NCBI GenBank assembly: GCA_003160115.1
Contig: PLQL01000016.1
Coordinates: forward strand, 17,683-69,629
Source of the DNA: Acidimicrobiaceae bacterium
Lineage (GTDB): Bacteria > Actinomycetota > Acidimicrobiia > Acidimicrobiales > RAAP-2
Direction of reading: 5' to 3'
DNA length: 51,947 nucleotides
The translations under genes were made by a program, and so were the position numbers. Shown one piece after another: positions 30,719 through 33,217 of the stretch (the first letter of the stretch is position 1; the number at the start of each line of letters is the position of its first letter). Under the pieces are notes generated by a model, which saw only the letters and a list, made by a program, of their open reading frames with translations, was not told the DNA's origin and made no database searches.

Positions 30719-31060
30719 TTACTTCGGGCCCTTACAAATGTGGGGACGTTGATTCGCGTCGATATCCGCGTCGGGTGTGCGATCGGGAATGCGTCCACGG
30801 CCGGCGTCGTTGTCGTGGCTGGGCGGCAGGGTCGTGCTCGACGAACCTTTGTAAAGTGTCGATCCCGACAATTTGATGAGAGCGCCTGAACTCTTGGTGC
30901 ACGCGGCGGTTCCGATCGTCGAGCAGGCCGAAAGCGACAGCGAGAATCCGGCGATGACGATCGCTGTGACGATCGCCGTACGATACCGAACCTTGCGGCG
31001 ACGTACGGTCCCAACGTCACTTCCAGTGAGGTCGTTGGTCTGATCTAATTCACCCTTCAT
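30719..31060 (-). CDS. Small lipoprotein, third gene of the MarR-linked micro-operon
   Basis: A 113-residue exported lipoprotein. After a polar, basic N-terminal stretch (DLTGSDVGTVRRRKVRYR) comes a hydrophobic segment TAIVTAIVIAGFSLSL with lipobox SACS, giving a lipid-attached cysteine near residue 46. The n-region is unusually long. The mature part is short and Ser/Thr-rich (SGALIKLSGSTLYKGSSSTTLPPS), then charged with ANQRPHICKGPK at the end. Its ATG overlaps the stop of the preceding gene by 4 nt. No family recognised. A role as a surface anchor alongside the two upstream small proteins is inference. Confidence 0.7.
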   Translation of the reverse strand: MKGELDQTNDLTGSDVGTVRRRKVRYRTAIVTAIVIAGFSLSLSACSTIGTAACTKSSGALIKLSGSTLYKGSSSTTLPPSHDNDAGRGRIPDRTPDADIDANQRPHICKGPK

Positions 31061-31305
31061 AAGCCCACCCCTTTGAGCACTTCTGATTGATCCTGGGTTG
31101 ACCCCGACGATGCAGGCAGGTTACTCAAGGAGTGCTCGGCACCGCGGTGTTCGTCCTCCGGGGTCAAAGCTCCGGTCGGCCTAGAAGTGACCTTCATTGT
31201 GGGCCCCTTGGATTCGCCGAATTCTGGACGGCGCATCCACGCGTAGGTACTGACGAACAAGACACAGAAGAACACCATCGCGACCATGGGAAGGACGACG
31301 CTCAT
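31057..31305 (-). CDS. Small single-pass membrane protein, second gene of micro-operon
   Basis: An 82-residue protein with one N-terminal helix (MSVVLPMVAMVFFCVLFVSTYAW) followed by MRRPEF and a polar, Ser/Glu-rich cytoplasmic tail. GGAGGT precedes ATG 31305 at ideal spacing. It overlaps both neighbours by 4 nt (ATGA), so the three genes are tightly coupled. The shape (helix, basic stop-transfer, acidic tail) recalls small accessory subunits such as CcoQ/CydX-like peptides of oxidases, but I see no oxidase genes nearby and do not claim that identity. Confidence 0.7.
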   Translation of the reverse strand: MSVVLPMVAMVFFCVLFVSTYAWMRRPEFGESKGPTMKVTSRPTGALTPEDEHRGAEHSLSNLPASSGSTQDQSEVLKGVGL

Positions 31306-31400
31306 TGCGGACCTCCATCAATCGATGCTCTCTTTGCCTCAACTTTCGCGTCCCGATCTGAACTGGCTTCTTTCCGGGACTCCCAATGCTCGAATCTCAT
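31302..31400 (-). CDS. 32-residue charged peptide, first gene of micro-operon (not in ORF track)
   Basis: MRFEHWESRKEASSDRDAKV continues for 12 more residues to IDGGPQ and stops at a TGA that overlaps the next ATG. AAGGAGG sits five bases before ATG 31400 (a second ATG at 31403 is too close to it). The peptide is highly charged and probably helical, with no signal or membrane segment. The perfect ribosome site, the ATGA junction and a promoter 30 nt upstream support it being translated. It may be a functional peptide or a leader that couples translation of the downstream genes. Confidence 0.6.
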   Translation of the reverse strand: MRFEHWESRKEASSDRDAKVEAKRASIDGGPQ

Positions 31401-31426
31401 CATCTCCTCCTTATTCCCAGTTTTAG

Positions 31427-31456
31427 TAGTGTATGATTAAATCGTACACTAATCAA
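31427..31456. promoter_or_regulatory. 25-bp MarR-type palindrome over the micro-operon promoter
   Basis: TAGTGTATGATT-A-AATCGTACACTA (31427-31451) is a palindrome with a single mismatched pair. On the minus strand TTGATT (31451-31456), 17 bp and TACACT (31428-31433) form a promoter for the micro-operon, so the palindrome covers its spacer and -10. Candidate marR -10 hexamers (TAGACT at 31462 and 31473) lie just beyond. Symmetry, size and AT-rich centre suit a MarR/OhrR dimer. Confidence 0.7.
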
Positions 31457-31498
31457 TAGGGTAGACTCTATTTAGACTAGAATCAAGGTATAGGGACC

Positions 31499-32083
31499 GT
31501 GAAGTCAAGAGAAAACGGCCCGAAGGCGAGCCCTACCATGACGGAGATGGCGAAGGTGGAAGAACATTCGATCGACGGGCAGATTTCGGCGCAGGGTTCG
31601 AGTTCGGCCGCGAGTGGTGGCGACCAGATTGCAACGCCGGTGGACCCGCTCGCCCTCGAGCGCCAGGTCTGCTTTGCCCTCGTCGTGGCCGCTCGAAGTG
31701 TCTTGTCGGTCTATCGACCCTTACTCGAGCCCATGGGACTCACTCACCCTCAGTACCTCGTCATGCTCGCGCTTTGGGAGCATTCACCACTTTCAGTGGG
31801 GGAGATCGGCGCTTTGCTGCAACTCGATTCGCCCACGCTCTCGCCTCTGCTCAAACGATTGGCAACCGCTGGTCTCGTAACGAGGACCCGAAGTGATGAC
31901 GACGAACGTCGCCTAGTGATTGAACTTACGCAAAAGGGCCGTGAGCTCCGTGAACGCGCCACGCTGATTCCTCCCGCCGTCGTGGCCCGTCTCGGTATCG
32001 AAATTTCCGAACTGGAGTTACTCCATACGGCCTTAACAAAAGTGATCAAAGCCGCCCTCGAGGTTGACGCACCTACTCAGTGA
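31499..32083 (+). CDS. MarR-family regulator, OhrR-like
   Basis: A 194-residue regulator with a long N-terminal extension of about 50 residues and a MarR winged-helix domain. ERQVCFALVVAARSVLSVYRPLLEPMGLTHPQYLVMLALWE (in parts) matches OhrR, including the cysteine in QVCFAL that senses organic peroxides and the tyrosine of YRPLL. The HTH is SVGEIGALLQLDSPTLSPLLKRL and the wing VTRTRSDDDERRLVIELT. GTG 31499 is used; ATG 31538 is possible. No ohr peroxidase gene is next to it; instead a three-gene micro-operon lies across a 25-bp palindrome. Redox sensing is inferred from the cysteine. Confidence 0.85.
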   Translation: MKSRENGPKASPTMTEMAKVEEHSIDGQISAQGSSSAASGGDQIATPVDPLALERQVCFALVVAARSVLSVYRPLLEPMGLTHPQYLVMLALWEHSPLSVGEIGALLQLDSPTLSPLLKRLATAGLVTRTRSDDDERRLVIELTQKGRELRERATLIPPAVVARLGIEISELELLHTALTKVIKAALEVDAPTQ

Positions 32084-32128: not shown

Positions 32129-33217
32129 TCAACTACACCGCTGTACGAACGCTGTGCTTCCAGGTTGGAGTGCTTGGCCAGAGTTCGCGTTCACTATAAG
32201 ACACGATTCGTCGACCGCGACGAACTGGGAGGCGGGGATCTGCTTGAGTTGATCAACCTCGCCGTAGGTCCAGCGTCGATCCGCAGTGCCCTGGAAGTAC
32301 CAGTTGCTCCCGTTATCGGCCAGGATCAGACCGTAGGTCTTCATGGTCGTGACGACCGTCTGGCAAAAGCTGTTGCAACTCGACACCGGTAACGTGAACG
32401 AAGCGTTCAGGCGAAACCGTGCTCCCATGGGGGGACATTGCGTGTTAGTTTGACCAGCCTCGTGACGCGCGGGCCATACGAACGATTCCTGAGTGCATTG
32501 CGCGCTGAAGCGAAGTGCGTGATTCATGGATCCCGACGCCATCTCGTCATAATTGACAAGTCCGGGCAGAATCGGCAGACCTGCTGCGTCGGCCGACGTG
32601 AAACCGCTGGGTCGAAGGGCGTTGGAGTTCAGATTCCAGATCGCGCCCGAGCCGGCAACGGAACGTCCGTTTGTCCTATACGTCGTGTCGTAGGTCTCGA
32701 ACAACGTACAAGCGTGCGACGTCGGCGACGCAGTCGGATCAACCATCAACGCGTGACGGTCCGAACCCCCCTCGATACGCGTGGTGCGAGTCAACGGATA
32801 CGGCCCGGGGCTGCTTTCGGCGGCGTATTGGAACATGATCCTCGTAAATACCGTGCGAGGCGCCACGATATTCCAGGGAATCCCATAAGGGGCCGACGGA
32901 TTGCCCGAGGGCCCGAAGTCAGGGTGAAGTGAAGTGGTTGACGCATCCATCGTCGCGAGCCAGGTCGCGCTGCTCGAATTGATCGGTAAATCCGTGATCG
33001 GCGTATTCCACACGTTGTCACGAGGAAACACCGAACAAGTCGTGCCCGGTAAGACCACACCCAATGACGAGGAACTCGAATGGGGCAGCGGTGACGCGCG
33101 CGCATCAAGTGTCCACGCAGATACGACACCGGCGTTCATGACGACCAACAGCAGTGCCACGCTTTTTTTCAGCACTCGCTTGGAACACCGAAGCGGGGCG
33201 CAACTCTTGGTTCTCAA
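32129..33217 (-). CDS. Secreted protein of unknown function with multiple cysteines
   Basis: This exported protein has 362 residues. A basic start and SVALLLVVMNAGVVSAW form the signal; the mature part begins near SSSSSLGVVLPGTTCSVFPRDNVWNTPI. FPxDNVWNTPI, the later LHPDFGPSGNPSAPYGIPWN and the tail region SNWYFQGTADRRWTYGEVDQLKQIP recur in a family of secreted actinobacterial and acidobacterial proteins without known function. Seven or more cysteines suggest disulphides outside the cell. The start is uncertain: TTG 33217 has no ribosome site and GTG at codon 14 (VLKKSVALLL) is a good alternative. It neighbours a metallopeptidase-like gene on the same strand. Confidence 0.75.
   Translation of the reverse strand: MRTKSCAPLRCSKRVLKKSVALLLVVMNAGVVSAWTLDARASPLPHSSSSSLGVVLPGTTCSVFPRDNVWNTPITDLPINSSSATWLATMDASTTSLHPDFGPSGNPSAPYGIPWNIVAPRTVFTRIMFQYAAESSPGPYPLTRTTRIEGGSDRHALMVDPTASPTSHACTLFETYDTTYRTNGRSVAGSGAIWNLNSNALRPSGFTSADAAGLPILPGLVNYDEMASGSMNHALRFSAQCTQESFVWPARHEAGQTNTQCPPMGARFRLNASFTLPVSSCNSFCQTVVTTMKTYGLILADNGSNWYFQGTADRRWTYGEVDQLKQIPASQFVAVDESCLIVNANSGQALQPGSTAFVQRCS

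Follow-up and report, generated by a model that had tools for sequence, protein, structure and literature searches.

The stretch of DNA analysed here (51,947 nucleotides of an Acidimicrobiaceae genome, hereafter the window) carries an OhrR-like MarR repressor gene that faces a micro-operon of small ORFs. On balance, the comparison of sequences leans towards a local regulon of an OhrR-derived, one-cysteine MarR repressor, in which a redox-released control would act on the repressor's own gene and on the operon of a membrane microprotein. In this system, the partners are undescribed, the regulator represents a diverged branch of an established family, and its operator appears to vary a known type. 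The window is part of contig C9 of an assembly of 1.92 Mb, which is 86% complete.

The micro-operon and its conservation

The regulator gene lies on the plus strand (31499..32083), starts with GTG, and encodes a protein of 194 aa with a single cysteine, Cys58, in a QVCFAL motif. Across a palindrome from it, the small ORFs run head to tail on the minus strand: one for a charged peptide of 32 or 33 aa (31302..31403), which has a strong ribosome site, one for an 82-aa single-pass membrane microprotein (31057..31305), and one for a 113-aa lipoprotein whose start codon is uncertain (30719..31060). As the ORFs are read, the peptide/82-aa and 82-aa/113-aa junctions are both ATGA overlaps. The micro-operon of three small ORFs with such overlaps and with ribosome sites is present as the sequence-only reading had described it, and the word "unrecognised", which it had used of the three genes, also proved apt, as the profile searches of Pfam and NCBIfam gave no match for the 32-, 82- or 113-aa protein. 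The regulator gene is also adjoined by a 362-aa ORF (32129-33217, minus strand), which has a signal-like start and no Pfam match.

Among the 172 Acidimicrobiaceae genomes surveyed, the regulator was found in 11 and the microprotein in 18. The microprotein gene is the divergent neighbour of the regulator gene in all nine genomes that have enough upstream sequence (9 of the 11 with the regulator), and although these genomes are related, so that the counts do not represent nine independent events, the divergence among them is nonetheless large. The expected conservation of the membrane ORF beside the MarR gene is thus borne out at every locus that could be judged. The other two genomes could not, as their contigs end just upstream of the regulator (G020, and G797, with 140 bases upstream, whose contig is apparently that of L066). 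In five genomes, the microprotein cores are 47-56% identical to that of the window copy. The constant part comprises the end of the helix and the juxtamembrane motif YxWMRRxxFGES, which weakens to MRRPxF in the copies that have diverged furthest.

A sister locus (L064, JABBNY010000124) presents the same succession of the operator, a 32-aa ORF, ATGA, an 83-aa membrane ORF, GTGA, and a 114-aa lipoprotein. Relative to this locus, dN/dS is 0.12 for the regulator, 0.18 for the microprotein and 0.14 for the 113-aa ORF, the last two values being only approximate because dS is 2.1-2.3. These ratios, near that of the regulator, point approximately to purifying selection on both of the larger small ORFs. 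The 32/33-aa ORF, which has two in-frame ATGs with AAGGAGGAG ahead of them, is 25% identical to its counterpart in L064, with a dN/dS of 0.56; its length, position and overlap are kept, and it is probably a leader or a translational-coupling ORF. The MAG to which JABBNY010000124.1 belongs is labelled Acidobacteria, its regulator is 83% identical to that of the window, and its operon is the same; this label, or the binning of the contig, is probably wrong.

In the window lipoprotein, the hydrophobic signal is followed by a lipobox of the [LVI][ASTVI][GAS]C type, LSAC, and the C-terminus reads LPPSHDNDAGRGRIPD.TPDAD.DANQR. A lipobox is also present in the homologues from G005, G008, G012 and G010; three more homologues are without it and look TM-anchored. 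The lipoprotein gene stands beside the regulator and the microprotein in three of the nine loci (the window, L064/G781 and G779), while seven more genomes of the genus carry it at a place other than that of the regulator. A fixed three-gene unit was therefore rejected. From the three-gene module proposed earlier, the membrane microprotein stood as the constant member (9/9), but neither the lipoprotein, which several genomes have elsewhere without the microprotein, nor the peptide, the sequence of which is poorly conserved, did so. Eight genomes of the genus have members of this lipoprotein-like family (window 30719-31060; L032-L038), which share the invariant tail LPPxxDNDA....R..D..PDxDxD and for the most part do not lie near OhrR; one may speculate that the acidic repeat binds calcium.

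The distribution of these genes bears on a neutral association, in which the microprotein and the lipoprotein would be unrelated housekeeping genes that share a divergent promoter region. Such an association would accommodate the lipoprotein genes located away from the regulator in seven genomes of the genus, as well as the orphan microproteins. It is quite improbable, however, in view of the divergent adjacency in nine of nine genomes over a large divergence, and of the candidate operator that lies directly ahead of the small operon at every locus inspected.

Nine genomes carry the microprotein without the regulator. At the orphan microprotein loci that were checked, no operator site of at least 15 bits was found, and the orphans were rejected on that ground as further targets in trans. 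Orphan WMRR copies with the regulator and the operator absent nearby were seen at L030 7031, L145, L205, L208-L211 and L214.

The predicted operator and the promoter

A palindrome of 25 bp, TAGTGTATGATTAAATCGTACACTA, occupies positions 31427..31451. It is built as 12+1+12 with one mismatched pair and is the sole such palindrome in the window; palindromes of equal quality occurred on average 0.3 times per shuffled whole window, and in 0.15% of the shuffles of the 95-bp intergenic region. By itself, this is suggestive of an operator, and it becomes convincing because the palindrome is conserved across the phylum. A palindromic weight matrix trained on 73 loci of the regulator from other actinobacterial lineages, none of them in the Acidimicrobiaceae set, with the consensus TAGTGCACTAATNATTAGTGCACTA, ranked the site at 31427 first in the 52-kb window with 25.8 bits, as compared with 11.9 for the best non-overlapping site and 10.1 for the reversed-sequence control. 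Moreover, in a genome-wide search for the operator pattern with up to three mismatches, the site at 31427 was the only one in this assembly. The weight matrix thus confirmed the 25-bp palindrome over the promoter region, which had been noted from the sequence, as a predicted operator conserved across the phylum.

The predicted operator is tandem, with two boxes 15 bp apart. In the window, the second copy overlaps the main one at an offset of 15 bp (31442..31466), has a weaker outer half-site, and scores 18.6 bits. In 72 of the 74 loci that have the operator, the site ranked second is offset from the first by 15 bp. As the half-site TAGTGCACTA is a palindrome in its own right, this is in part an automatic effect of symmetry, but there is enrichment of the outer, third half-site, which scores about -3 as compared with about -15 at other offsets. 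The core, ATGATTAAATCGT, agrees at 9 of 12 positions with the OhrR box ACAATTNAATTGT (PMC6034001). The footprint of Streptomyces avermitilis OhrR comprises two 13-nt boxes inside 28 nt (PMC6034001), an arrangement that would fit the 15-bp geometry of the window operator.

The promoter is the weakest part of the earlier observation. The sequence TTGATT-N17-TACACT is indeed there, within the operator (31428..31456, read from 31456 to 31428 on the minus strand), but it agrees with the sigma-70 consensus in only 8 of 12 positions and went unreported in a standard scan, and we regard it as a possible promoter of the small operon.

An OhrR branch with histidine at position 40

The MarR domain of the regulator was recognised by PF01047 (1.2e-15, 57.6 bits, cut-off 24.6). 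The best NCBIfam match was the OhrR model, with 146 bits, which is below the 200-bit cut-off, as is also the score of the canonical G030 protein; the closest solved structures are all OhrR (2pfb, 1.4e-33; 1z91, 2.5e-30; also 2pex). Cys58 aligns with the N-terminal sensing cysteine (Cys15 of Bacillus subtilis OhrR) and is kept throughout the subfamily. The best profile match, the structure matches and the alignment support a regulator of the OhrR type with the sensing cysteine in QVCFAL, as had been proposed. Its relatives occur through Actinomycetota and are 56-83% identical.

In canonical OhrR, the sensing cysteine is surrounded by Tyr19, Tyr29 and Tyr40; the sensing pocket takes shape between subunits. 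The position of Tyr29 holds tyrosine in 84 of 84 sequences and in all 83 members of the subfamily. That of Tyr40 is occupied by histidine in 83 of 83 subfamily members, the window protein included, and that of Tyr19 by alanine, valine or serine, again in 83 of 83 (valine in the window); nearly all of the 83 sequences have a single cysteine. As two of the three tyrosines are replaced, the classic OhrR mechanism cannot simply be assumed. At the window locus we find all the traits by which the His40 subfamily is defined here: His40, a single cysteine, a tandem operator of the TAGTGCACTA type, and no adjacent ohr. Judged from these comparisons, the regulator appears to be a previously undescribed, actinobacterial offshoot of the OhrR switch.

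The replacement of two tyrosines favours the main rival of a redox switch, a ligand-sensing MarR protein with an incidental cysteine. The regulator would then bind a small ligand (lipid, phenolic or other hydrophobic) in the MarR pocket, as many MarR proteins do, its cysteine would be structural or modulating, and the membrane proteins would answer membrane-active compounds. The constant histidine at position 40 and the loss of ohr as a neighbour would also suit such a sensor. In contrast, the invariance of the cysteine and of Tyr29 in 83 of 83 sequences, nearly all of them with one cysteine, argues for a redox role, and ligand sensing is, in our judgement, a serious but rather unlikely explanation.

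The association with ohr was followed in a sample drawn evenly from the phylum, to which the canonical G030 locus was added, with about 1.5 kb of flank on each side. An adjacent ohr gene was present at 11 of 11 loci of the Tyr40 type, which are not independent because most of them come from one family (f83), and at 0 of 20 loci of the His type. With no ohr at the window locus either, the view that the local target is something else than ohr was upheld. In a first set, for which flanks of up to 4 kb were searched, ohr was absent from 79 of 80 loci. The exception was G007, where an Ohr-family peroxiredoxin gene (L028 13852-14283) is located some 3.4 kb away from the regulator; none of the top sites is an operator belonging to that gene. 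The ohr-linked OhrR proteins of Streptomyces keep Tyr40 and have asparagine or histidine at the position of Tyr19.

One could argue that the regulator is an ordinary OhrR, the main target of which is an ohr gene elsewhere in the genome, the small neighbours being incidental. The OhrR fold with its cysteine, and the Ohr-family gene of G007, would agree with that. However, the operator occurs once in the genome, the only OsmC-family gene that was found in the assembly is OsmC-type and is without the operator, none of the 20 His-type loci has an adjacent ohr, and the regulator keeps the microprotein as its neighbour, which together make an ordinary OhrR improbable. Canonical regulation of ohr in trans was rejected on the basis of the unique operator and of the OsmC gene that lacks it, although an ohr gene or further targets may be missing from an assembly that is 86% complete.

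In comparison with the OhrR-ohr systems of Bacillus subtilis, Xanthomonas campestris and Streptomyces, the window system has in common the MarR fold, the N-terminal cysteine in Q-(V/L)-C-F, Tyr29, a divergent control region, and tandem operator boxes of apparently related sequence. It differs from them by the lack of an ohr target, by His40 and Ala/Val/Ser19, by the extension of the operator to TAGTGCACTAATNATTAGTGCACTA, and by a small membrane-protein gene as the apparent target. HypS of Mycobacterium smegmatis and QorR of Corynebacterium glutamicum have one redox cysteine per monomer, the oxidation of which de-represses neighbouring genes (PMC11633110). By this description, the window regulator is like them in its single cysteine; the passages on HypS and QorR in that source mention no small membrane-protein target (PMC11633110).

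Position 40, as Tyr or His, separated the ohr-linked OhrR proteins (L184-L193) from the non-ohr-linked ones (L164-L183) completely in the sample. This residue could be used as an annotation rule for OhrR proteins, and the actinobacterial 'OhrR' of Rhodococcus, Nocardia and mycobacteria are annotated for peroxide detoxification. The subfamily would also serve as a natural experiment on the effect of a changed tyrosine network on thiol sensing.

Partner proteins and the proposed mechanism

DUF5313 (PF17240) of Mycobacteriales has the same operator and stands beside the closest regulators outside Acidimicrobiaceae. It differs from the 82-aa protein in its length of about 125 aa and its two predicted TM stretches, and has no sequence similarity to it. 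In the phylum sample, it is the partner at 10 of the 20 His-type loci. In Mycobacteriales, its gene is located downstream of the regulator, in many cases with an overlap of 4 bases, and in several Pseudonocardiales-like loci it is divergent. Single-TM partners of 56-66 aa were found in Microbispora, Actinomadura and Actinoallomurus, while the partners that we call GPA are non-membrane proteins of 60-90 aa with an R..GPA..G motif. The small-partner ORFs were called by a heuristic of our own, with which no clear small partner was found at L083, L096, L116 and L166. In the regulator tree, the WMRR-linked regulators form one supported group (98/81) and the partner types are strongly clustered, requiring 6 changes as compared with 23.4 in shuffles. 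Taken together, the pattern appears to be actinobacteria-wide, with interchangeable small, mostly membrane partners. The core proposal of the earlier note holds in part, and the pattern is broader than that note saw. The main texts of the open-access PMC literature, to which the search was confined, contained no report of a regulator/small-protein module.

The small operon could also be a toxin-like or phage-defence-like membrane module silenced by the repressor, in keeping with the tiny size of its membrane proteins, with their presumed divergent repression, and with partners that are specific to a lineage and vary from clade to clade. Nevertheless, microprotein copies exist without the repressor, and the invariant juxtamembrane motif and purifying selection likewise speak against such a module, which we consider very improbable.

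In the local regulon that we favour, the reduced repressor, as one dimer or as two dimers on the tandem operator, would cover the divergent promoter region and hold down its own gene and the small operon. Oxidation of Cys58, whether by an organic peroxide, by hypochlorite or by some other thiol oxidant, would yield a sulfenic acid, a mixed disulfide or a mycothiol adduct, and the oxidised repressor would release the DNA. The core product, the microprotein, would then be made and inserted in the membrane as a single-pass protein, presumably N-out/C-in judging by the Arg-Arg after the helix, which would place the conserved WMRRxxFGES motif on the cytoplasmic side. In the window species and two others, the lipoprotein would follow. 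The most likely role of the microprotein would be to serve a larger membrane complex as a small adaptor or modulator. AcrZ, CydX and MgtS are bacterial membrane microproteins which, by description, it resembles in size, in having one TM helix, and in a short conserved flank that could dock on a larger membrane protein. The case for a redox trigger is weakened by the replacement of Tyr19 and Tyr40 throughout the subfamily, with which oxidant sensing may have been changed or lost; the microprotein copies without regulator or operator, the relatives without a clear small partner, and the GPA partners, which do not span the membrane, also count against the model.

A wider reading of the sequences is possible, though doubtful: the His40 offshoot may have been re-purposed from peroxide detoxification to the deployment of lineage-specific small proteins (DUF5313, WMRR, HGPAK, GPA), triggered by redox change or lipid peroxides, which would protect or reprogram a shared membrane complex. 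If true, this re-purposing would represent a general envelope-redox response so far undescribed. DUF5313 and several nameless microproteins in any case gain a testable regulatory context.

Two further observations concern the partner proteins. At L121 (Trebonia kvetii), a 101-aa single-TM protein starts downstream, at the stop of the regulator, and has IMIWIRVRR after the helix and then CAVCGEP; its layout resembles that of the WMRR microprotein. The GPA proteins recur as the ORF divergent from His40-type OhrR (L099, L109, L141, L142, L168-L170, L177 and L180-L183), and several GPA proteins end in a zinc-ribbon-like CPxCG...H...DRSG...HCP.
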